Below are positions 1,818-53,104 of a stretch of 64,000 nucleotides of DNA, piece after piece. The number at the start of each line of letters is the position of its first letter. Position 1 is the first letter of the stretch. A program made the translations under genes and the position numbers. The notes beneath the pieces were generated by a model. The model saw only the letters and a program-made list of their open reading frames with translations. It was not told the origin of the DNA and made no database searches. This stretch comes from Halobacteriovorax marinus (lineage in GTDB: Bacteria; Bdellovibrionota; Bacteriovoracia; Bacteriovoracales; Bacteriovoracaceae), in assembly GCA_002163155.1 (NCBI GenBank), contig MAAO01000016.1:186001-250000 (forward strand). Reading direction: 5' to 3'.

Positions 1818-3192
1818 TGTAGAATTGCTCAATACTTTTCAAAGCGAATTTAATTTTTCGTCTAAAATAATATCATTGTCTACAGATAGTAGAAGTTATA
1901 GTTCTGAGGGGCTTTTTATTTGTCTTGCAGGTGAGAACTTTGATGGTTTTAGTTTTGTAGAACAAGTCTTAATAAAAAATTGTAAAATCATAGTTTTCAA
2001 AAATTCGAAAGCTAACCTTTCAAAAAGAGATATACTTTTTAAGAAGTACTCTGATGTATCATTCATTAGTACTAACGATCCTCTGGAACTCTTACAATCT
2101 CTGGCTAAGAAGAGAATTGATCAATTCAAAGAAGAAGGACATTCGGTATTTGCAATTACTGGTTCTAATGGAAAAACTACTACTAAGGAAATGCTGTTCA
2201 AGTTATTGCAGTCAGTTTTTAAGGAAGAAGTTTTCGCTACTAAAGGCAATTTAAATAATCACATTGGTGTACCACTTACAATATTGTCTGCACCAATTGA
2301 ATGTACAAAGTTAATCGTGGAAATGGGATCAAATCACCTTGGTGAGTTAGCTCTACTGTGTGAAATTGCAAAGCCGGAGTTTGGTATTATTTCAAATGTT
2401 GGTGCCGCGCATATTGGACTATTTGGAAGTCTTGATAATATCTTTAAAGAAAAGAAATCTTTATACGATTACGTCTTATTAAATAAAACCGTAAAGTCTA
2501 AGTTTGTAATAAATAACAATGATGATTTTCTTTCTAAAATACCTTCTGGTGAAGTTTTGACGAAGTTTGGAAATGTCGATTCTGATTATAGTTTGGAATT
2601 TGAAACAAACGGATTTTCGTTTATCTTTAAAGAAAAAGAAGTTGTTATTAAAAATGTGAATATCTTTGAAAAATATAATCTCGAAAATCTCGCTAGTGCA
2701 CTTATTCTATGTCTTGATCTCTTTCCTGAAAAAGTTAATGACTTTGTTACGAGCGCTAATAGTTATCAAATACCTGCACTCAATAGATCAGAGTGGTTAG
2801 AAGTTGGTGGAAAAGAAATTTTCTTAGATGCCTACAATGCAAATCCTACATCAATGACCTCTTCTCTAAATTCATTTAAGAGTAATCTAGAAAGAAAGCA
2901 AATTAGCATGAGTGACTCGTTGTTCATTTTGGGCGATATGAATGAGCTTGGAGATTACACTCAAGCCGAACACAAGAAAATTGGTACTCTATTGAGTTCA
3001 ATTGGTGCCGAAAAAGTTTGTTTTGTTGGTCAGTACGCAAAGTATTATAAAGAGGGCTTTCCTGCCGGAGAAACCTTTCCCACAAAATCATCCTTAGAAG
3101 AGAAATGGCCCACATTGTCACAAAACCATAAGGTAATATTTATAAAAGCCAGTCGGTCTTTACAACTAGAGTCATTAGTAGATATAACTTAG
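1810..3192 (+). CDS. murF: MurF, UDP-MurNAc-tripeptide:D-Ala-D-Ala ligase
   Basis: It joins D-Ala-D-Ala to the UDP-MurNAc tripeptide, completing the cytoplasmic peptidoglycan precursor. The protein has the MurF arrangement: an N-terminal substrate-binding domain (STDSRS, with a LFICLAGENFDG stretch), the central ATP-binding loop GSNGKTTTKE near residue 117, the EMGSNHLGEL segment, and the C-terminal DAYNANPTSM motif. The length of 460 residues is normal. It overlaps murE, and a 29-bp gap separates it from mraY. No Ddl gene is present in the window to supply the dipeptide. Confidence 0.96.
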   Translation: MFNVELLNTFQSEFNFSSKIISLSTDSRSYSSEGLFICLAGENFDGFSFVEQVLIKNCKIIVFKNSKANLSKRDILFKKYSDVSFISTNDPLELLQSLAKKRIDQFKEEGHSVFAITGSNGKTTTKEMLFKLLQSVFKEEVFATKGNLNNHIGVPLTILSAPIECTKLIVEMGSNHLGELALLCEIAKPEFGIISNVGAAHIGLFGSLDNIFKEKKSLYDYVLLNKTVKSKFVINNNDDFLSKIPSGEVLTKFGNVDSDYSLEFETNGFSFIFKEKEVVIKNVNIFEKYNLENLASALILCLDLFPEKVNDFVTSANSYQIPALNRSEWLEVGGKEIFLDAYNANPTSMTSSLNSFKSNLERKQISMSDSLFILGDMNELGDYTQAEHKKIGTLLSSIGAEKVCFVGQYAKYYKEGFPAGETFPTKSSLEEKWPTLSQNHKVIFIKASRSLQLESLVDIT

Positions 3193-3221
3193 ATTACGAC
3201 TCATTCTATCTTAGGAAATTT

Positions 3222-4298
3222 ATGCTCTATCATTTTTTATATCCTCTGAGTCAGGATATCTCAGGCTTTAATATATTTAGATATATTACCTTTCGAACTT
3301 TTGTTGCTTTTTTAATAGCTACAATCTTTTCTATTATCTGGGGACAAATCTTCATTACATTCATGAAAAGAAAACAATTTGGACAAGTTGTTCGTGAAGA
3401 TGGACCACAAAGTCACTTAAAGAAAGCGGGAACGCCTACTATGGGTGGAATTGTTATTATTGGAACAATCTTCTTCGCCATGTTGTTTTGTGCAAATTTT
3501 ACTTCAATACCAGTGTTAGTAACTCTGGGAGTGACATTGTCCTATTTTATCTTAGGATTTATTGATGACTATTTAAAAGTATTGAAAAAGAATTCTGATG
3601 GAATTTCAGCTAAGGGAAAATTGCTCTGGCAGTTTGCTACAGCATTGCTTGCTGGTTACTTTCTCATTGATCAGGGTATTATCGATACAAAACTCTATAT
3701 GCCTTTTGTGAAAGGACCAGTGTTAGATATGGGTTGGTTCTATGTTCTCTTCATTGGAGTGGTTGTTGTTGGATCTAGTAACGCAGTGAATCTGACAGAT
3801 GGTTTAGATGGTCTCGCTATCGGTCCAATAATTACATCTGCAGCAAGTTTGGGCATTATTGCTTATGCTGCGGGTCACAAAGAGATCGCTTCATATCTAT
3901 TTATTCCATACGTTGAAAATATTGGTGAATTGATGGTTATTTCTGCGGCCATAATAGGTGCCGGAGTAGGCTTTCTGTGGTACAACTCTTATCCTGCACA
4001 GGTATTTATGGGCGATGTAGGCTCGTTAAGCCTTGGTGGGAATTTAGGTATTGTTGCTGTTCTGACTAAGAGTGAAATATTGTTTGTCATTATTGGTGGA
4101 ATTTTTGTAGTTGAGGCTTTGTCGGTCATACTGCAGGTGGCTTCATACAAAACTAGAAAGAAAAGAATTTTTAAAATGGCACCTATTCATCATCATTTTG
4201 AGTTGAAGGGTTGGCCGGAGCCAAAAGTTATAGTTAGGTTTTGGATTATTAGTATATTCTTAGCAATGTTTGCAATTGCAACATTGAAAATGAGGTAA
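3222..4298 (+). CDS. mraY: MraY, phospho-MurNAc-pentapeptide translocase
   Basis: A polytopic membrane enzyme that transfers phospho-MurNAc-pentapeptide to undecaprenyl phosphate, making lipid I. Family hallmarks include GTPTMGG near residue 71, the aspartate-rich GFIDDYLKV motif, NLTDGLDGLA, FMGDVGSL, and the C-terminal MAPIHHHFELKGW histidine motif. The length (358) matches the family. It is followed 4 bp later by murD. Confidence 0.97.
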   Translation: MLYHFLYPLSQDISGFNIFRYITFRTFVAFLIATIFSIIWGQIFITFMKRKQFGQVVREDGPQSHLKKAGTPTMGGIVIIGTIFFAMLFCANFTSIPVLVTLGVTLSYFILGFIDDYLKVLKKNSDGISAKGKLLWQFATALLAGYFLIDQGIIDTKLYMPFVKGPVLDMGWFYVLFIGVVVVGSSNAVNLTDGLDGLAIGPIITSAASLGIIAYAAGHKEIASYLFIPYVENIGELMVISAAIIGAGVGFLWYNSYPAQVFMGDVGSLSLGGNLGIVAVLTKSEILFVIIGGIFVVEALSVILQVASYKTRKKRIFKMAPIHHHFELKGWPEPKVIVRFWIISIFLAMFAIATLKMR

Positions 4299-4302
4299 AT
4301 AG

Positions 4303-5685
4303 ATGGAACGTTTTCAAGGTAAGAAAGTTCTCATTGTTGGTGTAGGAAAAACAGGTTTCACGTTGATTAACTTTTTTAATAAAGTTGGTTGTGACATAAA
4401 AGTAACCGACATTAAGCCAATTTTTGATTTAAATAAAGCTGTTAAAAAACTTAAAAGAATTCAGCCGCCACTTAAGATGGCGTTTGGTGAGCATAGAAAC
4501 GAAGACTTTTTAGAAGCTGACGTTATTGTTTACTCTGCTTCTGTAAATCCTGATCTTCCTCAGTTAGAGTTAGCTCGTCAAAATGGAAAAGAAGTTTACT
4601 CTGAATTTGCCTTAGGTAATGTCCTTTGTAGAAAGCCAATAATTGCTGTTTGTGGAAGCATGGGAAGAACTACTGTTGCTCACATGATTGGCTACACGCT
4701 TAAGTTGGATGGAAAAAATGTATTCATTGGTGGAACTTCAGAAAGTCCATTTATTGAATTCTCAATGCTACCTAACAAAGATGAAATTGATTATGTAGTT
4801 GTAGAAGTTTCAGCAGTCCAAATGAGAAAGTTAGACAACTTCCATCCAAGACTTGTTGTTTTTACAAATATTTCAGAGAATTACCCCGATAAGCACTTCA
4901 ACTCTGTTGGAGATTATATCGAGACAAAGCTAAGTATTATCAAAACACTTTCACCAGATGATACTTTAGTTGTTAACTTTGACCAGTTAGCAAACAATAC
5001 ATTCTTTAGAAATGCTAACTGTCAGACTTACTGGTACTCAAGAAAGTCATTCGTTTCAATGGGTGTCATTAATGAGATCCAAGGAACTCATTTCCACGAC
5101 AGAAGAATTCATTCTAATATCAATTACCATTCTGAATTTAAAGTTAATCAAATGAGAATTATCGGTCAAAACAACAGAGAGAACTTACTTGCAGCTATCA
5201 CTGCTTGTAAGGCGCTTGAGGTTTCTGACAAATCGATTCAGACTTGTATTGAAAAATTCCCAGGAATTCCTCATAGATTGGAATTCTTGATGGAAAAAAA
5301 TGGAGTGGCTTTTTATAACGATTCAAAAGCTGAAAAAATGGAAGAGCTTTGTAAGTCGATCGAGTCTTTTAAAAATCAGGTAATTTTAATTGCTGGTGGT
5401 AAAGATATCGAAGATTTTGATTTTGAACCATTCACTGAACATGTAATTAACCACAGTCGAGTTATTGTTCTTGTTGGTGAGTGTAAAGAAAGAATGAACA
5501 GAGCACTTCAAGAGCATAATCAAACTTTTATTGTAGGATCATTTGAGGAATCAATTCTTCTTGCATATCAAAAATCTAGAACTGGTGACGTAATTCTTCT
5601 CTCTCCTGGAAACGGGGCTTCGGATTTCTTTAGAGATTACGAAGAGCGTGGAAGTTACTTCAAAAAACTTGTTTATCAATTGTAA
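4303..5685 (+). CDS. murD: MurD-type Mur ligase with altered ATP-binding motifs
   Basis: By position (mraY-murD-ftsW), fold and length (460) this is UDP-MurNAc-L-alanine:D-glutamate ligase. The C-terminal half is conventional: QNNRENLLAA, the YNDSKA motif, AGGKD, and LLSPGNGASDFF. The central ATPase domain is not. The P-loop reads CGSMGRTT (residues 117-124), with arginine at position 122 where Mur ligases have an invariant lysine, and the downstream Asp-His metal motif is replaced by Asn-Tyr in NISENYPDKH (about 189-198). The EVS glutamate (168) and the candidate carbamylated lysine (about 209) remain. No other MurD is in the window. It could be an active variant with altered nucleotide handling, or a family-wide change in this lineage. 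Confidence 0.88.
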   Translation: MERFQGKKVLIVGVGKTGFTLINFFNKVGCDIKVTDIKPIFDLNKAVKKLKRIQPPLKMAFGEHRNEDFLEADVIVYSASVNPDLPQLELARQNGKEVYSEFALGNVLCRKPIIAVCGSMGRTTVAHMIGYTLKLDGKNVFIGGTSESPFIEFSMLPNKDEIDYVVVEVSAVQMRKLDNFHPRLVVFTNISENYPDKHFNSVGDYIETKLSIIKTLSPDDTLVVNFDQLANNTFFRNANCQTYWYSRKSFVSMGVINEIQGTHFHDRRIHSNINYHSEFKVNQMRIIGQNNRENLLAAITACKALEVSDKSIQTCIEKFPGIPHRLEFLMEKNGVAFYNDSKAEKMEELCKSIESFKNQVILIAGGKDIEDFDFEPFTEHVINHSRVIVLVGECKERMNRALQEHNQTFIVGSFEESILLAYQKSRTGDVILLSPGNGASDFFRDYEERGSYFKKLVYQL

Positions 5686-5690
5686 AAATT

Positions 5691-5718
5691 AAAAGGAGCT
5701 CTAAGCTCCTTTTTTTTT
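5691..5718 (+). terminator. Rho-independent terminator between murD and ftsW
   Basis: A perfect 10-bp stem (AAAAGGAGCT / AGCTCCTTTT) with a 3-nt CTA loop runs straight into a run of T residues, 5 bp after the murD stop codon. It splits the cell-wall cluster into two transcription units or attenuates readthrough. Confidence 0.85.
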
Positions 5719-5771
5719 ATATTACCTCAATATTACTTGCGCCGTTTCCAGAACCCCATTAAAATAAAAGT

Positions 5772-6977
5772 ATGATTGATGAGTATTCACGGATGGATAA
5801 GTTCTCCACTTATTTAAAATTTGCATTAGGAACGTTAATTGTTGTTGGCGTGATTATGGTTTATTCAGCCAGTTACATGTATGCAAAAGAAAAATTTGGA
5901 AATTCAGGTTACTTTTTTTTAAGGCAATTATTATTTGTGGGAGTTTCACTGACTGTTGCTTTTGTTATTTCTAAGACAAAATACAAATTTTGGCTAAAAT
6001 TTTCCTTACACATCAATTACTTTGCTAGTTTTCTCTTGATGCTGACGTTTGTCCCAGGACTTAAAACAGTAGTAAAAGGAGCAAACCGATGGCTACGTAT
6101 TGGTGGCTTCACTCTACAACCTGGCGAATTTGTAAAATACACGGTAATCTTAGTTTCCATTATTTTCTTTGAGAACTTTCAAAAATTCGATAGAAATAAG
6201 AGAATAAATTATGGTGTTTGTATGGGCCTACCTTTCTTGTTGCTCATTCTTCAGCCTGACTTTGGAACTTTTTCAATTTGCTTCTTCGGCATGAGCTTTG
6301 TTTGTTTTCTAAGTTCTTTTCCAAGAAAATATTTCTATTCTGCTTTTGTTTCAGGAATTATTTTAGGTGGAGTTGTTCTAGTCTCTGCTCCTTATAGAGT
6401 GAAAAGGTTACTTTCATTCTTAAATCCGTGGGAAAATGCACAAGGTTCAGGCTTTCAAATTATTCAGTCTTGGATTGGCTTTGCTAATGGTGGATTCTTT
6501 GGAATGGGGCCAGGTAACAGTATTGAAAAATTGTTCTATTTACCTGAGGCGCACAATGACTTCATTTTCTCTGTTATAGGTGAAGAGTTTGGATTTCTTG
6601 GTGTTTTCCTCATGGCGGGACTCTTTTTATCTGTAATCTATTTTGGATTTGTCTTGGCCATGAAAGTTAAGCTGAGAGAGGGGTCATTACTCATGGCAGC
6701 AATAATCTTTGTGATTGGAATTCAAAGTGTACTAAATATGGGAGTAGTTCTTGGCCTACTTCCAACGAAAGGACTAAATCTCCCATTTATTAGTTATGGT
6801 GGATCTTCACTTTTAAGTAATTTGTTTGGGCTAGGTCTATTTTTCTCTGTTCTCAGAGCTTATAAAGAATCACACCTTACTTCTCACACCACTTCTGGTG
6901 AATTTAATCCACATTCTAACCCATCACCAGGTTTTCAAAACCTAAGAAATCAGGCATCATCTAGCATTCCTCGTTAA
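5772..6977 (+). CDS. ftsW: FtsW, septal peptidoglycan glycosyltransferase
   Basis: A SEDS-family polytopic membrane protein that polymerises lipid II at the septum with FtsI. It has about ten hydrophobic segments, the KGANRWLRIG and LQPGEFVK stretches, the large loop ending in LPEAHNDFIFSVIGEE (the segment holding the catalytic aspartate in the family), and the final LPFISYGGSSLLSN motif. The 401-residue length is normal. The tail is polar, Ser/Pro/Asn-rich and cytoplasmic. The first ATG has no clear Shine-Dalgarno sequence, and a second ATG seven codons in is possible. It follows a terminator, so it may have its own promoter. Confidence 0.94.
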   Translation: MIDEYSRMDKFSTYLKFALGTLIVVGVIMVYSASYMYAKEKFGNSGYFFLRQLLFVGVSLTVAFVISKTKYKFWLKFSLHINYFASFLLMLTFVPGLKTVVKGANRWLRIGGFTLQPGEFVKYTVILVSIIFFENFQKFDRNKRINYGVCMGLPFLLLILQPDFGTFSICFFGMSFVCFLSSFPRKYFYSAFVSGIILGGVVLVSAPYRVKRLLSFLNPWENAQGSGFQIIQSWIGFANGGFFGMGPGNSIEKLFYLPEAHNDFIFSVIGEEFGFLGVFLMAGLFLSVIYFGFVLAMKVKLREGSLLMAAIIFVIGIQSVLNMGVVLGLLPTKGLNLPFISYGGSSLLSNLFGLGLFFSVLRAYKESHLTSHTTSGEFNPHSNPSPGFQNLRNQASSSIPR

Positions 6978-14778: not shown

Positions 14779-16407
14779 CTATACAAAGTGGACAATGGTA
14801 ATAGGCTTATAACCAATAATAGAATGAACATAACGCCTGATGACAATTCGTAGCTCTTCAGCTGTGTTTTCCAGCAGCTTAATCTTGCGGCCACTTAGTT
14901 CCGAATTAATAAGAAAATCGAACTCTTCCGTTAATTCAGTGAATGAATTTGGTAATCCTTCGAAGGTATATTCAAATGAGATGTTTCTCTTTGTTAATGA
15001 ATCTCTTTTAATGGAGAGAAAAATGCACCCAGTTGTTGCAAGTTTTCTTCGCTTAGAAATTTGGTGTTTTTCTATCTCAATTCCATTTCCATGAATTAAG
15101 ATTGGGGCTAATGGTTCACCTTTGATCGTACTAATTTCTAAAGAAGATGATATGTGAATTTCATCAAAGTTATGTAGAAGTGTACATTTGGCACTTGGAT
15201 ATTTTTCATTAATAAACTCAATATGCTTTTTCAAAAATAGAGATTCACCGTGAATGGGAACTATGTAATTGGGACAATAATTCTCATAAAGCTGAAGAAG
15301 GTCGCTTCTACCGGGGTGTCCAGAAACATGAACTAACATTTCTCTAGAAGAAATGATCTCAACACCTTGTTCAGTAATTTCATTTTCTAAGAGAGATATT
15401 CTCTTTTCGCTACCTGGAATTGCCTTGGAACTTAGAATGAAAAGGTCATCGCTAGTTAATTTAAAGTGAGTGTCCTCGCCTTTGGCTATTCTTCTAAAAG
15501 TTCCTCTGAAGTCTCCCTGGCAACCACTGGCCAGAACCACTAAGTTGTTCTTGTTAGGAAGAGATGCAGGATCAGTGTAGAATGATCCTTCTTCAATTAA
15601 CCCTCTTGCAACAGCGGTGTTGGCATAATTGATCATTGAACGACCATATAATAAAATCCTTCTCTTGGACTCTTTTGCAGAAACGATAGCGGACTGAATA
15701 CGCTGAATATTAGAGCTAAAACAAGTAATGAATATTCTATTGTTCTTACGTTTGAAAATCTCTTGAAAACTCTTTAAAACCAATGCTTCTGAAGGAGTTT
15801 GTAAGTTTGTAGAAAGAATATTTGTACTATCCGGTAAAAGAACTCTTACTTGAGAATCCTTGGATAATTTAATGAGTTTTTTGAAATCAAACTCTCTTTC
15901 ATATGGATTAATAGGATCAATTTTAAAATCTGAAACTAGGAAAGTTGAAATCCGATTTTCTCTGTCTTTAATCAATAAGCCATTAGTGTCTGGAATGGAG
16001 TGATTAACATGAATGGGATGAATTTCTATATCATTAAAATCCAAAATAGAATTGTTGTCATACTCTTGTATTTGTACGGAAATCTTTAAGTAATCAAATT
16101 TATTTCTAATAAGAAGTACTGCAAATCTAGGAGCATGAATCTTGATATTTGGAAACTTATCCAGAACGTGTCTTATCGCCCCAATGTGATCTTCATGTCC
16201 ATGAGTAATGACTAAGTCTGTTGGAGGATTCTCTATTAGAGACTCTAGGTCGGGAATTAAGTAATTAATGTCAAAGAAATCTTCACTTGGAAATAAGATA
16301 CCAGCATCAATTAAGAGGGTTGTTTTCTTTGTTTCAATAAGAGTCATGTTAGATCCAATCTGACCAACACCTCCTACAGGCTTAATTTTCAATAAAGTAC
16401 TATTCAT
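14779..16407 (-). CDS. rnj: Ribonuclease J
   Basis: A metallo-beta-lactamase/beta-CASP ribonuclease with 5'-3' exonuclease and endonuclease activity on mRNA and rRNA. The zinc motif HGHEDHIGA is near residue 66, LLIDAGILFPSED precedes it, the beta-CASP domain holds the SGCQGDFRG stretch, and the HVSGHPGRSD motif and VPIHGE complete the active site. Its 542 residues fit the family (about 550). The ATG overlaps the end of udk by 8 bp. An RNase J in a Gram-negative points to lineages outside the gamma/beta-proteobacteria. Confidence 0.93.
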   Translation of the reverse strand: MNSTLLKIKPVGGVGQIGSNMTLIETKKTTLLIDAGILFPSEDFFDINYLIPDLESLIENPPTDLVITHGHEDHIGAIRHVLDKFPNIKIHAPRFAVLLIRNKFDYLKISVQIQEYDNNSILDFNDIEIHPIHVNHSIPDTNGLLIKDRENRISTFLVSDFKIDPINPYEREFDFKKLIKLSKDSQVRVLLPDSTNILSTNLQTPSEALVLKSFQEIFKRKNNRIFITCFSSNIQRIQSAIVSAKESKRRILLYGRSMINYANTAVARGLIEEGSFYTDPASLPNKNNLVVLASGCQGDFRGTFRRIAKGEDTHFKLTSDDLFILSSKAIPGSEKRISLLENEITEQGVEIISSREMLVHVSGHPGRSDLLQLYENYCPNYIVPIHGESLFLKKHIEFINEKYPSAKCTLLHNFDEIHISSSLEISTIKGEPLAPILIHGNGIEIEKHQISKRRKLATTGCIFLSIKRDSLTKRNISFEYTFEGLPNSFTELTEEFDFLINSELSGRKIKLLENTAEELRIVIRRYVHSIIGYKPITIVHFV

Positions 16408-17086
16408 GAGGTATATTTACTTGGTGTTCGCTAAAATTGAAAGCACTTCTATTTAAGGAGGCTTCATTTAGGTCATAAATTCCAATCTTAGATAATTCTT
16501 TGAGTTTTGCAGATAATATTGAGGCTGCTATATCTGTCTCCTCACCTATGCTAAAATCAGCGTGGTCTCTTTGTGGAGCAAGAAACTTATTGTACATTGG
16601 TCGTACAGTTTCATAGTACTGAGCGATAACTGACTCAAGAGTTCTTCCTCTTTCGTTAACGTCTCTATTTATTCTTCTGGCAATTCTGATGTCAGCATCT
16701 ACATGTAAGAAGCATCGAATATCGAGAAGGCTTCTAATTTCTTGATCAAAAATTGAGAAGATTCCCTCAAAGAGGATAATGCTTGTTGGCTTAAGTGTAA
16801 TTGTCTCTTCTGATCTTGAAGATGTCACAAAATCGTAAACAGGAACTTCAATAGGATTCCCTCTTTTTAATTCACTTAGATGAGTTCTTAAAAGCTCCCA
16901 ATCAAATGCTGCTGGATGATCAAAGTTTGGATTTCCTTTGGCTGAGAAGTGTTTCTCAGGTTGCTCATGCAGGTAATATGAGTCCATGTGTAAAATAGAG
17001 ATATCTTCTTTAACTAAATTAATGACTTTCTTGGCAAAAGTGGTTTTTCCTGAGCCTGAGCCCCCGGCAACGCCTACAAGGTACAC
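16400..17086 (-). CDS. udk: Uridine kinase
   Basis: Phosphorylates uridine and cytidine in pyrimidine salvage. The Walker A motif GGSGSGKTTF is near the N-terminus, followed by HMDSYYL, NFDHPAAFDWELL, VPVYDF, LFEGIF and RRINRDVNERGR, all typical of uridine kinases. The frame extends upstream to 17158, but the preferred start is the GTG at 17084-17086: it sits six bases after a TGGAGA ribosome-binding site and gives a 228-residue protein of normal length. The 3' end overlaps the RNase J gene. Confidence 0.9.
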   Translation of the reverse strand: MYLVGVAGGSGSGKTTFAKKVINLVKEDISILHMDSYYLHEQPEKHFSAKGNPNFDHPAAFDWELLRTHLSELKRGNPIEVPVYDFVTSSRSEETITLKPTSIILFEGIFSIFDQEIRSLLDIRCFLHVDADIRIARRINRDVNERGRTLESVIAQYYETVRPMYNKFLAPQRDHADFSIGEETDIAASILSAKLKELSKIGIYDLNEASLNRSAFNFSEHQVNIPHE

Positions 17087-17104
17087 AATAATTCTCCATA
17101 CAAG

Positions 17105-17133
17105 TTGTAAAATCCAATAGGAGCTAACATAAT
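17105..17133 (+). promoter_or_regulatory. Candidate sigma-70-type promoter for the peptide-binding protein gene
   Basis: In the divergent gap between udk and the next gene, TTGTAA and CATAAT hexamers are separated by 17 bp. The spacing is optimal and each hexamer matches the consensus at most positions. No experimental support is available. Confidence 0.35.
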
Positions 17134-17195
17134 AATAATATGCATTTATAACAATCATGAGGATAAAAATTACTCACTGCAAAAGAGGCTCTTCA

Positions 17196-18743
17196 ATGCA
17201 ATTTAAGCTACTTATAAAAATCACGCTACTAGTTTTTTTAGGATCAATGGCCATAGGATCTAATGCCGCTATTGAAAACAAAGTTAGATTGGCTATTTCC
17301 TCCTCTCCAGCAAATCTAAGTCCATTCTATGGAACTGATGGAAACTCTCAAAATATTAACCGATTAGTCCATTTAACACTCACCGACTTTAGTAAAAAGA
17401 TGACTTTCTATTGTAGGTTTTGTGAAACTTTTTCAGAAAGAATGGAAGGTGCGAAACATATATTAAGTTTTAAACTAAAAAAGAATATCAACTTTTGGGA
17501 TGGCTCTAAAGTAACGGCAAAAGATGTTTATAACTCGTGGAAATATTTTACAGATACAAAAGTCATTAAGTCTGTATTTCGTTTTGGTCTTGGTAAAATT
17601 AAAGACGTTAAAATAATTAACGATTATAATGTAGAGCTAGTTTACGAAAAATTTGATCCAGACAATCTTTCAGACTTAGCACTACTTAAAATTGTCAAAA
17701 TTAATAAAAAAGATATAGTGGCGAACATCCCCTATTCATCGATAATTGGAGCAGGTCCATACAAGTATAAAATTGTAGATGAGTTGGAAGTAACTTTGGA
17801 ATCTAGGGATGGGAAAAGACCAGAATTAGTATTTAAAGTTGTTAAAGATGAAACTACCCTAGCTTTAAAACTAATAAATAAGGAGATTGACCTATCTCTC
17901 GCAAATATTTCTCCAAGAAAATATCATTGGCTAAAAAATAATAGACCAGATCTTAGCTTTCATGAAATGGAAGGAACGATTTTTAATTACATGGGTATAA
18001 ATCACAAAAATAAATATCTAAAGATTAAAAAAATTAGAAAAGCTCTTTCTCTTTTGATTCCGAGAGAGAAGTTACTTAAACATAAACTTAAATCTACTGC
18101 TACACCTTCTTCTAGCATGTTCTCTAAGGCCTTTACTAAAATGTATATTGGACCAAAGATAGATAGTTATGATCCAGACTTAAGTGAGAAACTATTTAAG
18201 GAATCAGGTTTTTCAAAGGATAAAAAAGGAAAGTTAGTTATTGATGGGAAACCATTTAAATTAACTTGGCGAGTTTCAAATAATAAGAATGCCATTGAAA
18301 TGGTTGAAACAATTAAGAAGTATTTCGAAAGGGCAGGAATCGAAGTAGAAGTTTCTGTACAAGAATGGGGGATTTACTATCGTAACATTAAGCAGGGGAA
18401 GTTTGATATCATGATGGGTAGATGGATGGGGTTCACTGGCCCAAGTATGCTTAAATATGTATTCCACAGTGAATCGGTTCCACCAAAGGGTGCAAATAGG
18501 GGATATTTTGTAAATAAGGAGTTTGATAAGCTCATAGACCTAGCGACTACTGAAACCAATGAAGAGAAAAGAAATAACTACTATAAAAAAGCTTTAGAAA
18601 TCTCCAATGAAGAGTACTCATATATCAATCTTTGGCATCCAAATATTATATGGATAGGGAGAAAGTGTTTACAAGGTGTTGATGTTCAGCCTAATGGTAG
18701 TTTCTTACCTTTATTAAACTTGGTGGATAACTGTGGAAAATAA
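17196..18743 (+). CDS. ABC transporter peptide/solute-binding protein (SBP family 5)
   Basis: A secreted extracellular solute-binding protein of the oligopeptide/dipeptide type. The signal peptide is clear from the ATG at 17196 (KLLIKITLLVFLG core, cleavage likely near SNA-A), and this start has an AGAGG ribosome-binding site; an upstream ATG at 17157 would spoil the signal sequence. Family features include the N-terminal SSSPANLSPFYGTDG, NFWDGSKVTAKDVYNSW and the AGPYKYK segment. No permease or ATPase genes are adjacent, so the partner transporter is elsewhere. Two Cys near residue 78 (FYCRFCETF) are unusual. Confidence 0.82.
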   Translation: MQFKLLIKITLLVFLGSMAIGSNAAIENKVRLAISSSPANLSPFYGTDGNSQNINRLVHLTLTDFSKKMTFYCRFCETFSERMEGAKHILSFKLKKNINFWDGSKVTAKDVYNSWKYFTDTKVIKSVFRFGLGKIKDVKIINDYNVELVYEKFDPDNLSDLALLKIVKINKKDIVANIPYSSIIGAGPYKYKIVDELEVTLESRDGKRPELVFKVVKDETTLALKLINKEIDLSLANISPRKYHWLKNNRPDLSFHEMEGTIFNYMGINHKNKYLKIKKIRKALSLLIPREKLLKHKLKSTATPSSSMFSKAFTKMYIGPKIDSYDPDLSEKLFKESGFSKDKKGKLVIDGKPFKLTWRVSNNKNAIEMVETIKKYFERAGIEVEVSVQEWGIYYRNIKQGKFDIMMGRWMGFTGPSMLKYVFHSESVPPKGANRGYFVNKEFDKLIDLATTETNEEKRNNYYKKALEISNEEYSYINLWHPNIIWIGRKCLQGVDVQPNGSFLPLLNLVDNCGK

Positions 18744-44398: not shown

Positions 44399-44416
44399 AG
44401 GGTCCTAACCCTCTAT
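44395..44416. terminator. Hairpin spanning the stop codons of lepB and mutS2
   Basis: ATAGAGGG-TCCTAA-CCCTCTAT, a perfect 8-bp stem, contains the lepB stop codon (TAG, 44396-44398) in its left arm and the mutS2 stop codon (44405-44407) in the loop. Neither side has a clear T run, so it may be a weak bidirectional terminator or a 3'-end stabiliser. Confidence 0.5.
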
Positions 44417-46768
44417 CGTAACCCTCGTTGCACCATCATTTCCGTCTTCTGGTATCCAAGTTAACTCTCTATTATCTTTTAAGTAAACTCTAAGCCACTT
44501 CTTTAAAGTGCCTTCTCCATGTCCATGAATAATATTTAAAAAAGGGATATCTCCGGCGATGAGCTCATGAACAGAGTCTTCAACTAGTTTTTGAAATTCT
44601 TCTAGCCTCATTCCTCTACCATCAATTTCAAGCTTTCCATAAACAGAACGAGTAATATTGATTTGAACATTTTGTTTAGGATATTTAATTTTAGCTGAAG
44701 TCAGTTTGTCTAGCTTCATCCAAATAGACATCTTGCCATTTATAACTTGAACTTCTTTCTTCCTATGATTAATGGCCATGACTTTAACATCGCGATTAAA
44801 AGTTGGAGAGAATAAAAGGTCTCCTTCTCTGATATCGTCGATAGTTATATTTGCTGTAATTTGAACGTCTTCTAATATCTCAGTGAATTTTCTTTTCTTA
44901 GGATCTGGTAAGGATCCAGAAATAGCAGAAACTTTCTTAGCCAATTGTTTTTTCGAATCAATTTTTCCTTTTCTAGTTTCGCTTAATAAATTCTCGGCTT
45001 TCGATATAATCTTATTCAATTTCTTTTTATATTCTTTTATTAATCTTTCTTTTTCGAGATGAACTAGTCCTTCCATAGATTGTTTTTGATTTTTTAGAGA
45101 ATTATTTAACTGTCTATTTTCCATTAAATGACGGTCAAGTTCAGACTTCTTATGAGAAAGCTCCTGAAGTAATTGTTCGTATGAAAGTTGTTTCTTATCA
45201 AGGATTTGCTCAGCTGATTCTGAAATATTATTAGAAAGTCCAAACCTTGTGGCCAATATATCAAAAATTTGGAATGCCATTGAGCTTCCTGGTGATCCAA
45301 AGAGTAATTTATATGTTGGCATACTTGTCTCTTGATCGAATCCAACATGACAAGATGTATATTCTTTAGAGCTATGAATATATGTTTTAAAAAATTGATG
45401 ATGGGTAGAAATTATAACTTTAGCATCGCTCCTCTTATGTATTTCTTGAAGAAAAGAAATTGCTAAGGCCGAAGCTTCTTCAGAAGAAGTAGAATTAAAG
45501 ATTTCATCGACAATAATAAGTGAATTCGGTTCAATGTCTTTAAGTAGTTCCAAATAATTCTTTGCTTCAGAAGCAAATGAGCTAAGTCCAGTGGTAAGGT
45601 CTTGTTGATCGTGTGAGAAGTAGTATATGCCTTGAGGTAAATATATCTCGCAGCTTCTTGCTGGTACGTAAAGTCCCATATAACTCATCAAAAAACACAG
45701 AGAAACAGACTTTAATGTCACCGTTTTCCCTCCAGTGTTAGGACCAGAAATGACAAGTCCTTTAGAAGTAGAATCGAGATGTAGATCATTTAGTACGGGA
45801 TTTTCAATTAGTGGGTGAAAGAAGTCTTTAATGTTAACTTTATTATCTTGATTTAGTATTGGCCTACATAATTGTAAATCATACGAGTAAGAAGACTTGG
45901 CTTTAATTAGATCAAGTTTATAGTAATAGTGAAGAATGTTAAGAGGAGCTCTCTCAAAAAGTAGTAGAGTCTCACAAAAGTTTTGGCAAATTTCATTTAT
46001 AATAGCATCAATTTGAGCCATTATTCTCATTCTTCTATTGCTCTTATCTCTCAAGGAATATGGCTCAATGAATAGAGTCATACCAGTACTTGACTTGGCA
46101 ACAATTACACCCATTTTCGAATTATAAGAATCAGATCTTACTGCCAAAACATATCTATCATTAATAATATCGTGTTCGTTATATTGTAGGGCTTTACTAT
46201 AACTCTCTTCTCTTTTGATTTTAGAAATGGATATTCTCAAGTCAGTCTCTAAATCCCTAACTTCCTTGAATAACTTTGAGAGCTTTGGATGTTTTTCTAA
46301 CTGAGTCTCTCCATTTTGAGAAACTAGATTTCTAAACTCTCGAATGAACTTATTGCGAATCTTACTTCTAAGAGCTTGATCTGGATGATTATGTTCAATA
46401 TTAAAATGATCAAATGTTCTAAAAATTGCAGGGTAGTTCTCAAGTAATTTGCAAATTGTATTGAGTTGGTTAAGCTCTAAAACTATTCCTTTCTCGATAG
46501 ATTTTAAATATGTTTCAAGCTCATTAGTACTAGGTAGTGTAATAAAAACATTGTTTAACGCATGGTTGTAATTCTCTCTTTCTAGAAGATAAAGTTCAAT
46601 GAAATTGAGTTCTTGGTTTATTATACTTATAGGTCTAAATTCTAAAAGGTTGTTAATACCCTCTTTGGTATAATTAAAATAGGATTGACTAACAAGTGCC
46701 GTGAGGATTTCTTGCCAGTCGAGATAATCTAGAAATTTTGAATTCTTATTAAGTAAGTTGAGTGCCAT
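44405..46768 (-). CDS. mutS2: MutS2 with Smr domain
   Basis: A MutS-family ATPase without the mismatch-binding domain. It has the core/lever helices, the Walker A ISGPNTGGKT near residue 340, the Walker B IIVDEIFNSTSSEE, long coiled-coil helices, and a C-terminal Smr endonuclease domain (DIDGRGMRLEEF then IIHGHGEGTLKKW). In Bacillus subtilis MutS2 senses collided ribosomes and splits them. The ATG at 46766-46768 begins MALNLLNKNSKFLDYLDW, a typical start; the frame runs upstream to 46813. It is divergent from an rqcH-like gene whose ATG overlaps it. Confidence 0.93.
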   Translation of the reverse strand: MALNLLNKNSKFLDYLDWQEILTALVSQSYFNYTKEGINNLLEFRPISIINQELNFIELYLLERENYNHALNNVFITLPSTNELETYLKSIEKGIVLELNQLNTICKLLENYPAIFRTFDHFNIEHNHPDQALRSKIRNKFIREFRNLVSQNGETQLEKHPKLSKLFKEVRDLETDLRISISKIKREESYSKALQYNEHDIINDRYVLAVRSDSYNSKMGVIVAKSSTGMTLFIEPYSLRDKSNRRMRIMAQIDAIINEICQNFCETLLLFERAPLNILHYYYKLDLIKAKSSYSYDLQLCRPILNQDNKVNIKDFFHPLIENPVLNDLHLDSTSKGLVISGPNTGGKTVTLKSVSLCFLMSYMGLYVPARSCEIYLPQGIYYFSHDQQDLTTGLSSFASEAKNYLELLKDIEPNSLIIVDEIFNSTSSEEASALAISFLQEIHKRSDAKVIISTHHQFFKTYIHSSKEYTSCHVGFDQETSMPTYKLLFGSPGSSMAFQIFDILATRFGLSNNISESAEQILDKKQLSYEQLLQELSHKKSELDRHLMENRQLNNSLKNQKQSMEGLVHLEKERLIKEYKKKLNKIISKAENLLSETRKGKIDSKKQLAKKVSAISGSLPDPKKRKFTEILEDVQITANITIDDIREGDLLFSPTFNRDVKVMAINHRKKEVQVINGKMSIWMKLDKLTSAKIKYPKQNVQINITRSVYGKLEIDGRGMRLEEFQKLVEDSVHELIAGDIPFLNIIHGHGEGTLKKWLRVYLKDNRELTWIPEDGNDGATRVTIEG

Positions 46769-48122
46769 GATACAAACTATTGTTGATTTAAATAATACAG
46801 TCCAAGAGTACAATAAGATGTGTCATATTGACCAGCGTGTATGTACTTCTGTTATGCAAAAAATTTATTCAAGCCCCCATTATTTATCGTTATCAATGCG
46901 GTTGCCAGGGAAAACATTATTCTTTTACTTGGGGCGAGGACAGAAGTACGAAGGCCTATTTATTGGTAAGAAAGCAGTACCTTCGAAATATAGAATAAGA
47001 GATCGATTCATTGAGTTTTGTAGAAAATATTTACAAGGCGGAATTGTTCATAAAGTAGAAACAAAGCTAAACGACAGACTACTCAATATTCACTTTACTA
47101 AAAGAGATTGTCACTACGACTTCACTTGTTTCTGGAAAGGACGTGAGCTTTATTTTTCACTTCTTGAAAATAACAAGGAAGGTAAACGTGTCTTTTGTAG
47201 TTGGATTGGTTGGCAAAATATATACGATGAAACAACTGTGGAATCTATTTATTCTAAAATAGGCGCTGGAAATGTTAAGTCTGAAAAAGAAGCAAAGGGT
47301 CTTTTCGATGAAGAGAATTATTTTCATGACTTAGAAAAAAATGTCGATGTTCACAGCTTTCCTAAAAGAAAAAAGAAGTTCTTTCAAAGAAAGTTAGTGA
47401 ATATTGAAAAAGATTTAGAGAAAGTAAAAAAATGGAAAGAACTAAAACACGAAATCGAAGGATCAGACTTTGTCATTCCTATGGATTACGAATTTAGCTT
47501 ACAGGGATTGAAATTTAAAATTGATGTGAGTGTAAACGAATTTAAGAGAAGAGATAAAATATATAAGAAAATTAAAGCATTTAGAAATGCTGAAACCTTA
47601 TTGGAAAATAGGCTAAACACGACAAGGAATGAATTTAAAAAATGGGCCGATGGCGATGTTTTTATAGTTAAAGGACTTGGCAAAACAGTAGAGCCCGTCT
47701 GGAAAAGTACCAAGAAGTCTGACCGTATAGATCAGGTAAAAGGTGTCAATAAGAAAATATATTCAATTGGTTCAGAGCTTCAGCTTGCTGTTGGATTGGA
47801 CAGCTCAAGTAATGATTGGCTTAGAAAAAATTGGGCATCAAAGGAAGATATTTGGTTCCATATAGATGGTGACAAAAGTGCTCATGTATTTTTGAAAAAC
47901 CCAAAGAATGTAAACGTAGAGCATAACTTACTGCAATTAATAGGTTCGGTTATGAAGGCGTACAGTCAATTCTCCTCGTCACAGATACCCTTGGTTTATA
48001 CTCAGGTAAAGAATGTTAAGGGGGTGAAGGGCGCCCCAGGAAAGGTCACTTTTAAGAAAGAAAAAAGAATTGATGTCTATTTTGATGAATCTTGGAAGGA
48101 AAGAATTTCAATCATTTCGTGA
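46767..48122 (+). CDS. rqcH: NFACT-domain protein, RqcH/Rqc2-like
   Basis: The N-terminal part shows the NFACT-N pattern with RKYLQGGIVHKVETKLNDRLL, including the Asp-Arg pair (residues 103-104) that in RqcH is needed for tRNA recruitment and C-terminal alanine tailing. Coiled-coil helices follow, then the C-terminal NFACT-R domain (DIWFHIDGDKSAHVFL, about 360-375, and YTQVKNVKGVKGAPGKVTF). At 451 residues it is shorter than B. subtilis RqcH (about 570), mostly in the middle. RqcH binds obstructed 50S subunits and tags nascent chains for degradation. Some alternatives are other NFACT roles. The start is the ATG at 46767. Confidence 0.82.
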   Translation: MIQTIVDLNNTVQEYNKMCHIDQRVCTSVMQKIYSSPHYLSLSMRLPGKTLFFYLGRGQKYEGLFIGKKAVPSKYRIRDRFIEFCRKYLQGGIVHKVETKLNDRLLNIHFTKRDCHYDFTCFWKGRELYFSLLENNKEGKRVFCSWIGWQNIYDETTVESIYSKIGAGNVKSEKEAKGLFDEENYFHDLEKNVDVHSFPKRKKKFFQRKLVNIEKDLEKVKKWKELKHEIEGSDFVIPMDYEFSLQGLKFKIDVSVNEFKRRDKIYKKIKAFRNAETLLENRLNTTRNEFKKWADGDVFIVKGLGKTVEPVWKSTKKSDRIDQVKGVNKKIYSIGSELQLAVGLDSSSNDWLRKNWASKEDIWFHIDGDKSAHVFLKNPKNVNVEHNLLQLIGSVMKAYSQFSSSQIPLVYTQVKNVKGVKGAPGKVTFKKEKRIDVYFDESWKERISIIS

Positions 48123-48181: not shown

Positions 48182-48988
48182 ATGAAAGTGTTTTTAGTAT
48201 TGTTGACGTTAGTTTTTTCTGTCAATTTATTTGGTAGAGAGATCCCGGAAGTAAATGAATTTGATATTCGTTACTATCATCCTGAGAATTATGGTCTAAA
48301 AGATTTAGTGTTTGAAATTCGTATTTCAAACTTGGTTGAAACATTAAACAAGAGACAGAACTTTGGAAGAATTGAAGATCTTTATTTTAAGATCTATTGG
48401 ATGTTTCCAGGTCAATATCAAATAAAAGTATTTGGTTTCCCAAAAGGCTTTCTAGAAGTAAAGCATCAACTGAAGCAAATGATTAAGAATAGACTCGACT
48501 TCGTCATTCCCTTAAAGCTTGCACCTAGAGTGAGAAGTTATGAGTTGAGTTATTTCAAAACGAAAGGAGCCAAAGGTGTTCGGGGTAAGGATCGAACAGG
48601 ATCAAGACCAGTATCAGAAATACAATTAAAATTTAAAAGAAATGGAATGCTAAAGGAATTTAAAACATTTAGCCCCACAGGTGTTAATACGTCACATTTT
48701 GATTTAACTTCAAAGGGTTGGAGTAACAACAAGTGGGTTGTCGACAAAATGATCATTAAATTAATTCAAGGTGTTCAACTTACAACAATAGAAAATGATT
48801 TTACCTATAAACCAATTTCTGGTTTTGGTTTTCCTCAGCGAGTTGATATAAAAACGTCTCAAGAAATATTGACCAATAATAATGGAAAGTCTAACAAGAG
48901 AACAGTTTCATCTTCAATTGAGTTTAGTAATTACGAAGTAAATACTGGAAAAGCTCAAAGGTATATGATTCGAGGAATTAAAAAGTAG
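48182..48988 (+). CDS. Secreted hypothetical protein
   Basis: A clear signal peptide (VFLVLLTLVFSVNLFG) gives a periplasmic or outer-membrane-linked protein of about 250 residues. The mature part is rich in beta-strand-like alternation and basic residues, with a C-terminal GFGFPQRVDIKT segment that recalls lipoprotein-carrier folds; I do not claim that. It is 1 base from the following lipoprotein gene, so both are probably produced together. Confidence 0.65.
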   Translation: MKVFLVLLTLVFSVNLFGREIPEVNEFDIRYYHPENYGLKDLVFEIRISNLVETLNKRQNFGRIEDLYFKIYWMFPGQYQIKVFGFPKGFLEVKHQLKQMIKNRLDFVIPLKLAPRVRSYELSYFKTKGAKGVRGKDRTGSRPVSEIQLKFKRNGMLKEFKTFSPTGVNTSHFDLTSKGWSNNKWVVDKMIIKLIQGVQLTTIENDFTYKPISGFGFPQRVDIKTSQEILTNNNGKSNKRTVSSSIEFSNYEVNTGKAQRYMIRGIKK

Positions 48989-51900
48989 ATGAGTATCTTA
49001 AAAAAAATAGTCTATTTGCTTACTGCCATTTTAGTACTGTCTTGTTTTAAGCAAGACGTACCTGAGGTGAGTTCAGATGTTCCGCGAACAGTTCGTGATT
49101 TTGATCAGCTTAAGGCGTGTTCAAATGTCTCATATTTTGAAGGCTTTCTCGAAAGAAATAATCTCCTTAACCTCTTTGTGTGTTCTAGTTGGGATTTGAA
49201 ATTTACAAAAATGTTTCAAGCTCTTTTGGATATCCCTGAGGAAAATTGGAATGATCTAGTTCGACCGATTGATGCTATATTTTTTGCAGACAGGGGAAGG
49301 CGAGATCGTTTTATTAATTATTATAGAGATTTAGATAGAGATGGTGCTCTAGACGATCTTGGTAGAGTTTTAACTGCTCTTACTGATACAAATTACTATG
49401 ATGGCCTCAATCACTTATTCATCTGTGCTGATGAGCCTGAAAACGTTGTTTGTGATTCTAGGGATATGAGAGTATCAAAGGAAGAAGTTAAGAACTTCTT
49501 TGATTTTCTTAATAGAGATCCAAAAATGTTATTAGAGTTGTCATTTGTTATTGACCACTTTCATAATGCACTTATCGGAAGATCCGAAAATCTTAGAAGA
49601 GAAATCAATAAATTTAATAACACAGATTTTTTTAATTCACTTAGAACAATCACAATCTCAAAATTTGCTGAAAAGTATCTAAGTGGACTTACGGACTCTG
49701 ACTTAAGACTGATTAGACGTTTCTTTTCCACAATGGACTCGTCACAGGATTTGACCTGGATCAAGTCTTGGTTAACAAACGATAGTGTCAATTCTGAATA
49801 CCTTTACGAGTTACTGTCAATTCCTGTTCATTCTGAAAAGCAATTAGTAAGAGATGTTAAAGTTCTTAACAGTCTTTATGTTAATGCAGTTTTATGTACT
49901 GCGGGTGATTTAGAATTACAGATTGATATAAAAGATCTCGTAAATAATACTTTGGGATATTTAAAGACTAATGAAGTCACAAAGTTCTATGATTCCCTTC
50001 TTCTAGCAAGTGAATCAATTAAATACGCAAGACCCGTTTGTCCCGAAATAACTGATGCTCAAGGACAAATTAACTACTGGGAATATTCGCAACAAAGAAA
50101 TGTAAATCATACTTTAGATTTAGGGAACGCCCTTAATTATTCAACTAAGTTGGTCTCAAAAGAACAGACTATTGAATTTCTGAAATATATTATTGATTTG
50201 GTAGAAGCCGACTATCCCTATCTTATGTCAGCTATATCAGGTGAATTATTTAATATTGGGAATGAATTAAACCGAGTTGTACTTGAAAATTCAGAGCCAT
50301 TTTACGGAATAGTACTGGATATATTTAAAAATAGCGATGATCAAATTTTTAAATCAGGTGCTGTGTTATTAAATGAAGTCTTTAATGAAAATATGAGTCC
50401 TGATATTGCAGCATGGAGTAAAGTATGGCTCTTTTGGAATAAAACAGAGCAGAACTTTCTATTTAACTTTGTTGATAGACATCTAGATGTTGGAACTGAT
50501 TATGTAAGGTTGTTTTCTTTCTACTCATTATTTATGAAAGAAATTTCTCAAGCCTGGCCCACTCTCAGAGAGGGCTATATAAAGGATGAAGAAACTAAAG
50601 AGCAAACATATCAGGCCTTTAAGAAGGCATCTAGTATTTTTCATGGTGAAGATATTCTTGATGATTATAAGAAGTTCTTTTCAAGAGATCATGTTCTTAA
50701 ATTGTTAAGTATTATTACTTCTGGTCAAAATTATAATGCATCAAGAATTGCATCCCTTAACCTGTCCTATAAGAGTGAGTTCGACCAGCTGCCTAAGAGG
50801 AACTTTAGTTTAGATGTTTCAGGATCATCAGTAGGAGAGAAGGTTAGTGAGTGTGTAAATGCTATCACTGAGCATGACTCTCTTTATAGTTTAATCAAAA
50901 ACTATCCTGAGAACTGTAAAAGTATCAATTCTGGTTATGTTTTGGATGATTTGACTCAGGGGATGGACGTTCTCATTGGTAAGTTTGAAAATCAGTTTCC
51001 TGATCAGAGTGTGGATCATTTCTTTGAGTTGGGAGGATTACTTTCTCCCGAAATGACTATTTGGGCGATAGCAAATGCTGTTTCGGTGAATGCTCAATAT
51101 AAGAAACATGATCGAGACATAGGTGATGCTTTTAATTTTATAGAAAAATACTTATATCAATTCGGAGAAGAAGGAAAGAAAGGTTATCAACTTGTTAAAC
51201 AAGGTATTGATTTTCTCATAGATTGGATGCCCGGTGATGAAGAAAAAAGTTTTAGAAATGGGTTAATAAGTGAATTTGTTATAAATAAAGAGAAGTTTGG
51301 AGATATCTTTGATAATTCAAGTCTCTATCTTAATGATTATGATCAATGGATACTGGGTTATAGAAAAACTCAATATATTGAAGATGAAAAATACAAGTGT
51401 GAAAATTTCTTAAATACAAATGTTGGTAAGAATATTTGTCCTGAAAAGCCTGCTGTGAAAAAGTACTTAAAACTACTCACTAAGCAGTTAACAACGGTCT
51501 TCGAAGAAAGTGAAGGACATCCTTTAGAACATATTCTAGATGCAGCTCTTCCCGAGGGGGGAGTATATATCCCTCTTGATGAACGAGATGCTAAGAAGAA
51601 GCGCTTAACTTTACTGGAAACGTTTAATTACCTTTTTGACTTAACAGATAAGAATCTTGCAGTGAATAGAACATTAGTAAAGCATCGTAAATCTTTGGAT
51701 CATGACAAAGAAAAGTATGAATTAACAACGTCTGAAAGAATCGATCTTGTTATACGTGAAGTGGCTTTTGGTCACAACTACCTAGGTGTTCAGTATCTAA
51801 ATGCAGTCGTTAAGGGTGAAAAGTATAACAAGATTGTTAAAAGTAAAAAAACATTAATGCAAACTTGCGTAAGACTTCCTTGGCTTAAATGTGGGAAGAG

Positions 51901-53104
51901 AATGACTAAGAACGAAACTCGCATGGCCAAGAATGCACTCTGGGCATATGACGGATTAATAGATGTAAATAACGGAAATGACCGCGAGAAAAGACTTAAG
52001 TACGGTAAGTATATGTCTGCCTTTCTTTATAGCTTGGTCGCCTCTTCAGCTCTAGATTCTCAAGAGGTCACTTTTTGGCCGATGGATGATAAAGAGTTGA
52101 AAAAGCATAATGGAGTGGCGCTGGGTTACTTCTCTCAAATCGCTTCGTTTAGTAACATGGGCCGAGTCGTTCATGACCGAGTAGGTAGGACTAGAGAGCA
52201 GTTAGAAACATTTGTAAGTAAGAAGCAATTTTTGCGAGTTAACGATTTAATTCTTGGAGGGGCTAACCCTGCTGAGCTTAAATCGACTCTTACTCAAATG
52301 GTGAATATTCTAAGAGATGAAGACGGTGAAGTTCCTCTTGATGATATTGTAGACTGGATTGCGGATTTAAATTATCAGGATATGAGATCACTAGAGGAAT
52401 TAGTGAGTAAGACACTATATATTTCAACTTTCTTAGGGAGTGAAAAATTTGTATTAGGATCGGGAGATTCTGAAAAATTTAAAAAGAACACTGTATATGA
52501 ATCCTTGTATATCGCTACAAAGTTTCTCAGAGATTATGATTTACTAAAATTAGGTTTTCCAAATGAGAGTAAACTTAAAAGTTTGATTTCACCTGCTCTT
52601 ACTGTAGTTAGCTTTTTGTATGATAAATTAAGTGATAAGTCTTCTCGAAATAATTATTGGTTACTATTGAATAGTGCTTATGCAGCCATTAGGGAAAGCT
52701 TCTATGTGAGAGGAGGGGTTGAACTCGTCACGAAGAATATAATTAAACCAGGAAAGATTGATAAGGGATATTCCCTAGTTAACAATGTTCATGAGTACTT
52801 AACGACTATTCATTCCGATGGCTTCTCAGAAATGGCAGAACATCTATCAATTATACAAGATGCTGATGTTGGATCAGATATCTTGTGGGATTATATTGGC
52901 AAAACTACGGTTAGATCGATTTGTGATATCGAATCAAGTGAATGTGTAGAGAATAAAACGTTTGATGAGTTACATCGTTTATTGATTCTTACAAGTAAAG
53001 GAAGCAATTTAAAAGATTTCTTAGATTGGTTCCTAATTGAGAAGAAAGAAAGTATTCTCAAAACTTCATCTGACTTTTTTCCATTTATTAAAGTAAAGAA
53101 ATAA
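48989..53104 (+). CDS. Very large (1371 residues) lipoprotein of unknown function
   Basis: The N-terminus has a lipoprotein signal peptide with lipobox LVLSC (Cys at residue 19). The remainder is mostly helical, aromatic and acidic, with no repeats I can define and no catalytic signature. One loop near residues 113-123 (DLDRDGALDDLG) has the Asp spacing of an EF-hand calcium-binding loop. Several Cys are spread along the mature part and could form disulfides. The size suggests a surface or periplasmic scaffold. It is followed after 15 bp by an RlmI-type gene that begins the next transcription block. Confidence 0.75.
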   Translation: MSILKKIVYLLTAILVLSCFKQDVPEVSSDVPRTVRDFDQLKACSNVSYFEGFLERNNLLNLFVCSSWDLKFTKMFQALLDIPEENWNDLVRPIDAIFFADRGRRDRFINYYRDLDRDGALDDLGRVLTALTDTNYYDGLNHLFICADEPENVVCDSRDMRVSKEEVKNFFDFLNRDPKMLLELSFVIDHFHNALIGRSENLRREINKFNNTDFFNSLRTITISKFAEKYLSGLTDSDLRLIRRFFSTMDSSQDLTWIKSWLTNDSVNSEYLYELLSIPVHSEKQLVRDVKVLNSLYVNAVLCTAGDLELQIDIKDLVNNTLGYLKTNEVTKFYDSLLLASESIKYARPVCPEITDAQGQINYWEYSQQRNVNHTLDLGNALNYSTKLVSKEQTIEFLKYIIDLVEADYPYLMSAISGELFNIGNELNRVVLENSEPFYGIVLDIFKNSDDQIFKSGAVLLNEVFNENMSPDIAAWSKVWLFWNKTEQNFLFNFVDRHLDVGTDYVRLFSFYSLFMKEISQAWPTLREGYIKDEETKEQTYQAFKKASSIFHGEDILDDYKKFFSRDHVLKLLSIITSGQNYNASRIASLNLSYKSEFDQLPKRNFSLDVSGSSVGEKVSECVNAITEHDSLYSLIKNYPENCKSINSGYVLDDLTQGMDVLIGKFENQFPDQSVDHFFELGGLLSPEMTIWAIANAVSVNAQYKKHDRDIGDAFNFIEKYLYQFGEEGKKGYQLVKQGIDFLIDWMPGDEEKSFRNGLISEFVINKEKFGDIFDNSSLYLNDYDQWILGYRKTQYIEDEKYKCENFLNTNVGKNICPEKPAVKKYLKLLTKQLTTVFEESEGHPLEHILDAALPEGGVYIPLDERDAKKKRLTLLETFNYLFDLTDKNLAVNRTLVKHRKSLDHDKEKYELTTSERIDLVIREVAFGHNYLGVQYLNAVVKGEKYNKIVKSKKTLMQTCVRLPWLKCGKRMTKNETRMAKNALWAYDGLIDVNNGNDREKRLKYGKYMSAFLYSLVASSALDSQEVTFWPMDDKELKKHNGVALGYFSQIASFSNMGRVVHDRVGRTREQLETFVSKKQFLRVNDLILGGANPAELKSTLTQMVNILRDEDGEVPLDDIVDWIADLNYQDMRSLEELVSKTLYISTFLGSEKFVLGSGDSEKFKKNTVYESLYIATKFLRDYDLLKLGFPNESKLKSLISPALTVVSFLYDKLSDKSSRNNYWLLLNSAYAAIRESFYVRGGVELVTKNIIKPGKIDKGYSLVNNVHEYLTTIHSDGFSEMAEHLSIIQDADVGSDILWDYIGKTTVRSICDIESSECVENKTFDELHRLLILTSKGSNLKDFLDWFLIEKKESILKTSSDFFPFIKVKK

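Follow-up and report, generated by a model that had tools for sequence, protein, structure and literature searches.

Does a mutS2 gene that stands head to head with an rqcH-like gene, in a relative of the predatory Bdellovibrio, represent the bacterial ribosome-quality-control (RQC) pathway? The two genes lie in a window of 64,000 nucleotides from Halobacteriovorax marinus (GCA_002163155.1, MAAO01000016.1, positions 186,001-250,000), the whole stretch of DNA analysed here and the one to which all positions refer. An initial annotation had proposed that they form a dedicated ribosome-rescue unit. Based on comparisons of proteins, gene order and gene content across the phylum Bdellovibrionota, we consider it probable that the pair is the known RQC pathway in a compact genomic form. 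The most interesting part goes beyond that original claim: an RqcH-like protein that lacks the HhH domain throughout the phylum, with no known partner factor found in the window's genome.

The minus-strand gene (Table 1) encodes a full-length MutS2, as first annotated. It scores 460 bits against the equivalog model TIGR01069 (cut-off 400; residues 9-784 of 787), its Walker A and B motifs are intact, and its MutS_V and Smr domains exceed their Pfam cut-offs. Its best match in the PDB is B. subtilis MutS2 (7qv3, E value 2e-67), and many other members of the phylum score higher against TIGR01069 (600-680 bits versus 460). The Smr domain is of the DxR/HGxG type, with which B. subtilis MutS2 binds collided ribosomes without cutting mRNA (PMC10897456). 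It belongs to the sole Smr protein found in the window's genome and carries DGR; a SmrB-type collision nuclease (Smr with DxH) was not found in this genome.

The plus-strand product belongs to the RqcH/Rqc2 family of NFACT proteins. A profile (A1) built from 48 NFACT relatives of the phylum, spanning about 17 families, aligns to B. subtilis RqcH with an E value of 7e-57, covering the NFACT-N region plus the remainder, and its PDB matches are only RqcH, Rqc2/NEMF, CCDC25 and FbpA-type NFACT proteins. The Pfam score for NFACT_N is 21.7 bits, under the cut-off of 31, yet the family profile still aligns this region to RqcH residues 14-147. In NFACT-R, which is well above its own cut-off, W363 and H365 are invariant across the 48 phylum sequences. 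The AlphaFold model of the window protein (mean predicted local distance difference test, pLDDT, 90) matches RqcH chains with VIA Z scores of 12-17 over its whole length; its overall root-mean-square deviation (rmsd) from RqcH is large, as would be expected if its domains were arranged in another way, and from isolated NFACT-N and NFACT-R structures it is 2.3-2.9. The Asp-Arg pair named in the initial annotation is present as D103-R104; its RqcH equivalent, D97-R98, is required for tRNA-Ala selectivity (PMC8373112). Alignment and modelling against RqcH, suggested at that stage as a check, thus identify an NFACT protein with the fold of RqcH, whose coiled-coil middle is present but shortened.

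A plain RqcH reading is ruled out by the same alignment, which skips from RqcH residue 147 to 277 and leaves residues 148-276 without a counterpart. This missing stretch contains the helix-hairpin-helix (HhH) domain, which belongs to the conserved core of the RqcH family (PMC8373112, PMC8012679); in B. subtilis it contacts tRNA together with NFACT-N (PMC8012679). All 48 members of the A1 set lack it, with 31-68 residues at the site versus about 130 in RqcH, which leaves the window protein about 120 amino acids shorter. A block of ~100 residues is likewise absent from seven representative Bdellovibrionota sequences when these are compared with five full-length homologues from Bacillota and Mycoplasmatota. 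A second model, of a protein from family f6 (our label, as are the f numbers below; mean pLDDT 89), also lacks HhH. In the tree, all short forms fall on one side of a single branch, so that one loss of HhH suffices, although support is poor for many of the inner branches. For other phyla, the comparison drew on a sample of small genomes and covered RqcH length and HhH only. The window protein therefore looks like a reduced RqcH variant whose HhH loss is phylum-wide; the accessible text of a survey of RqcH and MutS2 (PMC11633108) contains no report of a shortened RqcH.

We found the pairing to be widely conserved. The organism groups with Bacteriovoracaceae-type genomes, the closest named one being Bacteriovoracaceae UBA3083 (64% protein identity). 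Of the family's 50 genomes in our phylum sample, 49 have the NFACT gene, and 43 of these have an adjoining mutS2, divergent in every case. Among the remaining six, mutS2 lies elsewhere in two, has no match above MutS1 level in three and was probably cut off by a contig end in one. The 48 named loci from the genome-contig set gave a similar picture (43 with divergent mutS2, two without it in the covered flank, three at contig ends). The pair is divergent in families f17, f20 and f24 as well, while in f7 it forms an rqcH-mutS2 tandem with operon-like spacing, the downstream start either overlapping the NFACT stop or lying no more than ~20 bp from it. In several f8 genomes the two genes are about 30 kb apart, and families f6, f11 and f12 keep both genes unlinked. 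Mapped on the MutS2 tree, the divergent state takes three changes and the tandem state a single one, a pattern that agrees with an ancient linkage lost two or more times. Conservation in dozens of genomes excludes chance and also the possibility, raised with the initial annotation, that the pairing is unique to the window's genome. We found no report of rqcH-mutS2 gene linkage, either by searching the accessible text of PMC11633108 for neighbourhood terms or in a literature search that lacked most subscription papers.

Some individual loci deserve mention. In one genome of the family (L096, G047; 3153-6528) a strongly diverged mutS2, with Walker A GPNSSGKT and an altered Smr motif, still adjoins a diverged NFACT gene in which DK replaces DR, which suggests joint decay of the two. 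Three loci of the family (L020, L098 and L097, in G010, G172 and G108) retain the NFACT gene in genomes where MutS2 matches do not rise above MutS1 level; in L020 lepB directly precedes the NFACT gene. In three Bacillota/Mycoplasmatota genomes (L155, L157, L159) no MutS2 was seen within the covered flanks of the NFACT locus.

The two genes also occur together. Across 191 genomes of the phylum, 147 have both, 34 neither and 10 one alone (Fisher p about 1e-27, uncorrected for kinship). The single-gene genomes comprise three with MutS2 only, each at most 82% complete, and seven with the NFACT gene only, of which one has a degenerate adjoining mutS2 and one depends on a weak match. An apparent absence of the NFACT gene from family f11 in the Pfam search was largely an artefact of sensitivity, as the A1 profile detects it there. 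The survey reports MutS2 in 97% of RqcH genomes and each gene in 5 of 6 Bdellovibrionota (PMC11633108); given this agreement, the co-occurrence itself is not new. It also places RqcH in nearly every phylum except Proteobacteria, so that the earlier remark that RqcH is not typical of well-studied Gram-negatives applies to Proteobacteria and not to Gram-negatives at large. Overall, adjacency conserved in two orientations and near-perfect co-occurrence support a functional link between the two genes.

As first annotated, the two genes are divergent with coordinated starts, both ATGs lying in one CATG. The start at TTG 46813 given for the minus-strand gene in the list of open reading frames is unlikely, ATG 46768 being the likely one. 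Start codons overlap in the same way in 27 of the 43 family loci and abut in 11 more. With no intergenic room, each promoter must sit within the opposite gene, unless each gene is read from further off; a promoter scan gave nothing above chance. Synonymous-site conservation is raised in the first 10 codons (NFACT gene, p 0.005; MutS2, p 0.02; five sites each), which hints at control elements within the coding regions, but it is confounded by translation-start constraints and is weak evidence. The window holds a second divergent pair that overlaps in CATG, a phosphoribulokinase/uridine-kinase-like gene (16400-17158, minus) and a gene for a family 5 solute-binding protein (17157-18743, plus). 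The layout may therefore be common practice in this genome and not a hallmark of the mutS2/rqcH pair, and we dropped the zero-gap starts as strong evidence. Downstream of the rqcH-like gene (48182-53104) lie two genes, of 268 and 1371 amino acids, without a Pfam match, whose adjacency to it is kept in much of the family.

Table 1. Features of the mutS2/rqcH-like locus, in window positions.
Feature	Position	Strand	Basis
mutS2, 787 amino acids, ATG 46768 (CAT 46766-46768), stop 44405	44405..46768	-	TIGR01069 and PDB match
Smr domain (residues 715-785), DGR replacing DxH, HGHG	44414..44626	-	PF01713 37.3 bits, over cut-off
KOW/SH3-like MSSS stretch (residues 648-689)	44702..44827	-	PF20297 23.5 bits, under 26.8 cut-off
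Walker B SLIIVDEIFNSTS (residues 416-428), IVDEI	45485..45523	-	Asp-Glu in 40/40 MutS2 sequences
Walker A GPNTGGKT (residues 342-349)	45722..45745	-	near-universal among 40 phylum MutS2 sequences
CATG with both start codons, zero intergenic region	46766..46769	.	both ATGs overlap there
rqcH-like gene, HhH-less NFACT protein, 451 amino acids, ATG 46767	46767..48122	+	Pfam, family profile, AlphaFold model
NFACT-N (residues 1-155)	46767..47231	+	model versus PavA/FBPS/FbpA NFACT-N structures, Z 13-15, rmsd 2.6-2.9
Asp103-Arg104, equivalent of RqcH D97-R98	47073..47078	+	profile alignment to RqcH
Short linker, site of HhH in other RqcH proteins	47232..47363	+	48 residues in window protein
Shortened coiled coil with beta-hairpin M region (residues 200-294)	47364..47648	+	AlphaFold model; S. 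suis FBPS C-terminal structure, Z 16.5
NFACT-R (residues 329-440), DIWFH at 361-365	47751..48086	+	PF05670 48.2 bits, cut-off 29.8

We also surveyed factors that might act alongside the pair in the window's genome, which is 99.99% complete. Besides transfer-messenger RNA (tmRNA), it encodes two proteins of release-factor size and an RF-1 domain protein that is about as large as ArfB (136 amino acids, G000:C1:1354879-1355268). The S4 proteins found with PF01479, judged from length and sequence, are uS4, two RsuA/Rlu-like proteins and TlyA. Among the S4 matches listed for 44 phylum genomes none lies in an open reading frame shorter than 168 amino acids, hence none is RqcP-sized. RqcH without RqcP or YlmH is reported from parts of Armatimonadota, Spirochaetota, Myxococcota and Nitrospirota (PMC11317155).

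In the pathway that we propose, MutS2 would recognise ribosome collisions with its KOW-like stretch and its non-nuclease Smr domain and split the leading ribosome using ATP, and RqcH would then add a tail to the chain left behind on the 50S subunit. Splitting, tailing and degradation in this organism are extrapolated from B. subtilis, where MutS2 has been placed ahead of RqcH by genetic and mass-spectrometric work (PMC10897456, PMC11633108). Several observations weigh against the proposal. HhH is absent from both the model and the alignment of the window protein, and alanine tailing by such a protein is presumed by analogy with B. subtilis. The window protein and the majority of its family retain the Asp-Arg pair, but some family members have lost it, and it is not universal in the phylum (of the 48 sequences, 22 have DR, 10 GR and 7 ER). 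No RqcP, YlmH or Hsp15 was detected in the window's genome with PF01479, a search that a very divergent S4 protein could escape. Finally, three family genomes have RqcH but no MutS2, from which it follows that RqcH is not strictly dependent on MutS2; this fits experiments in which RqcH keeps some function without MutS2 (PMC11633108). The idea of a dedicated quality-control unit is upheld only in part: mutS2 has disappeared or moved away in five of the family genomes with an NFACT gene, and the genes are unlinked in f6, f11 and f12.

The alternative that we take most seriously, though we find it doubtful, is that the HhH-less NFACT protein is a 50S rescue factor that no longer makes alanine tails, or not only these; its role may be limited to clearing or holding the 50S subunit so that peptidyl-tRNA hydrolase can act, or it may add other residues. 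The loss of HhH in all 48 members, the replacement of DR by GR or ER in many families and the failure to detect RqcP, YlmH or Hsp15 in the organism's own genome, or an RqcP-sized S4 protein among the matches listed for the 44 genomes, all speak for it. However, the window protein and most of its family retain DR, the core residues of NFACT-R are invariant, and other phyla have RqcH without RqcP or YlmH (PMC11317155); an unknown S4-like factor may also exist. That the plus-strand product is instead a fibronectin-binding surface adhesin, in line with FbpA/PavA-type annotations, is hardly credible: its weak match to the NCBIfam EfbA 'exception' model (49 bits) is far under the cut-off of 1025 bits, and the adhesin name is an older label for RqcH homologues (PMC8373112).

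Other explanations concern the pairing itself. Gene order in a block of lepB, mutS2, rqcH and the two downstream genes may simply change slowly, without selection for the pair. Neighbours on either side are indeed conserved within the family, L020, which lacks mutS2, has rqcH straight after lepB, and the window contains another divergent pair overlapping in CATG; the f7 tandem, with its operon-like spacing and other orientation, nonetheless makes this explanation unlikely. In H. pylori and T. thermophilus, suppression of recombination has been ascribed to MutS2. MutS2 might accordingly act mainly on DNA, its adjacency to the NFACT gene being an old neighbourhood without shared function, and the absence of linkage in f6, f11 and f12 agrees with this. 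We regard such a role as still less probable, as it is opposed by the two orientations of the pair, its conservation through deeply divergent families, the joint absence of both genes from whole families and Smr motifs (DxR/HGxG) of the ribosome-binding type.

Returning to the RQC pathway as the probable function of the pair, the missing HhH and the missing S4 partner imply that the details of how tRNA is handled must be different here. We tentatively suggest, with rather less than even confidence, that Bdellovibrionota have a minimal form of RQC elongation, in which a HhH-less RqcH without RqcP or YlmH would capture and translocate tRNA on the free 50S subunit by NFACT-N and a short coiled coil, either unaided or helped by an unknown partner; the composition of the tails may be altered in GR and ER lineages. 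Such a protein makes it possible to ask directly what elements of RqcH and RqcP are required for elongation without mRNA and the 30S subunit. The linkage in two orientations, in turn, provides independent genomic support, outside Bacillota, for the placement of MutS2 just upstream of RqcH. Bdellovibrio and Bacteriovorax are among the culturable members of the phylum.

In comparison with known systems, the published survey covers the same two genes and includes Bdellovibrionota, but we found no gene linkage in its accessible text (PMC11633108). The RqcH systems without RqcP or YlmH in PMC11317155 resemble ours, where neither factor was found; its accessible text names neither Bdellovibrionota nor HhH loss. 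RQC in B. subtilis has the S4 partner RqcP/YlmH, whereas neither was found in the window's genome. The window MutS2 resembles B. subtilis MutS2 (RqcU; 7qv3, 8qpp) in its full length, Walker motifs, Smr DxR and HGxG motifs and KOW-like stretch, while it has DGR where B. subtilis has DLR and is divergent in sequence. Compared with B. subtilis RqcH (YloA; 7aqc, 7as8, 8s1u), the window protein lacks HhH, has a shorter coiled coil (451 versus 570 amino acids overall) and is encoded by a gene linked to mutS2, but it shares NFACT-N with the Asp-Arg pair, the coiled coil with its M hairpin, and NFACT-R.

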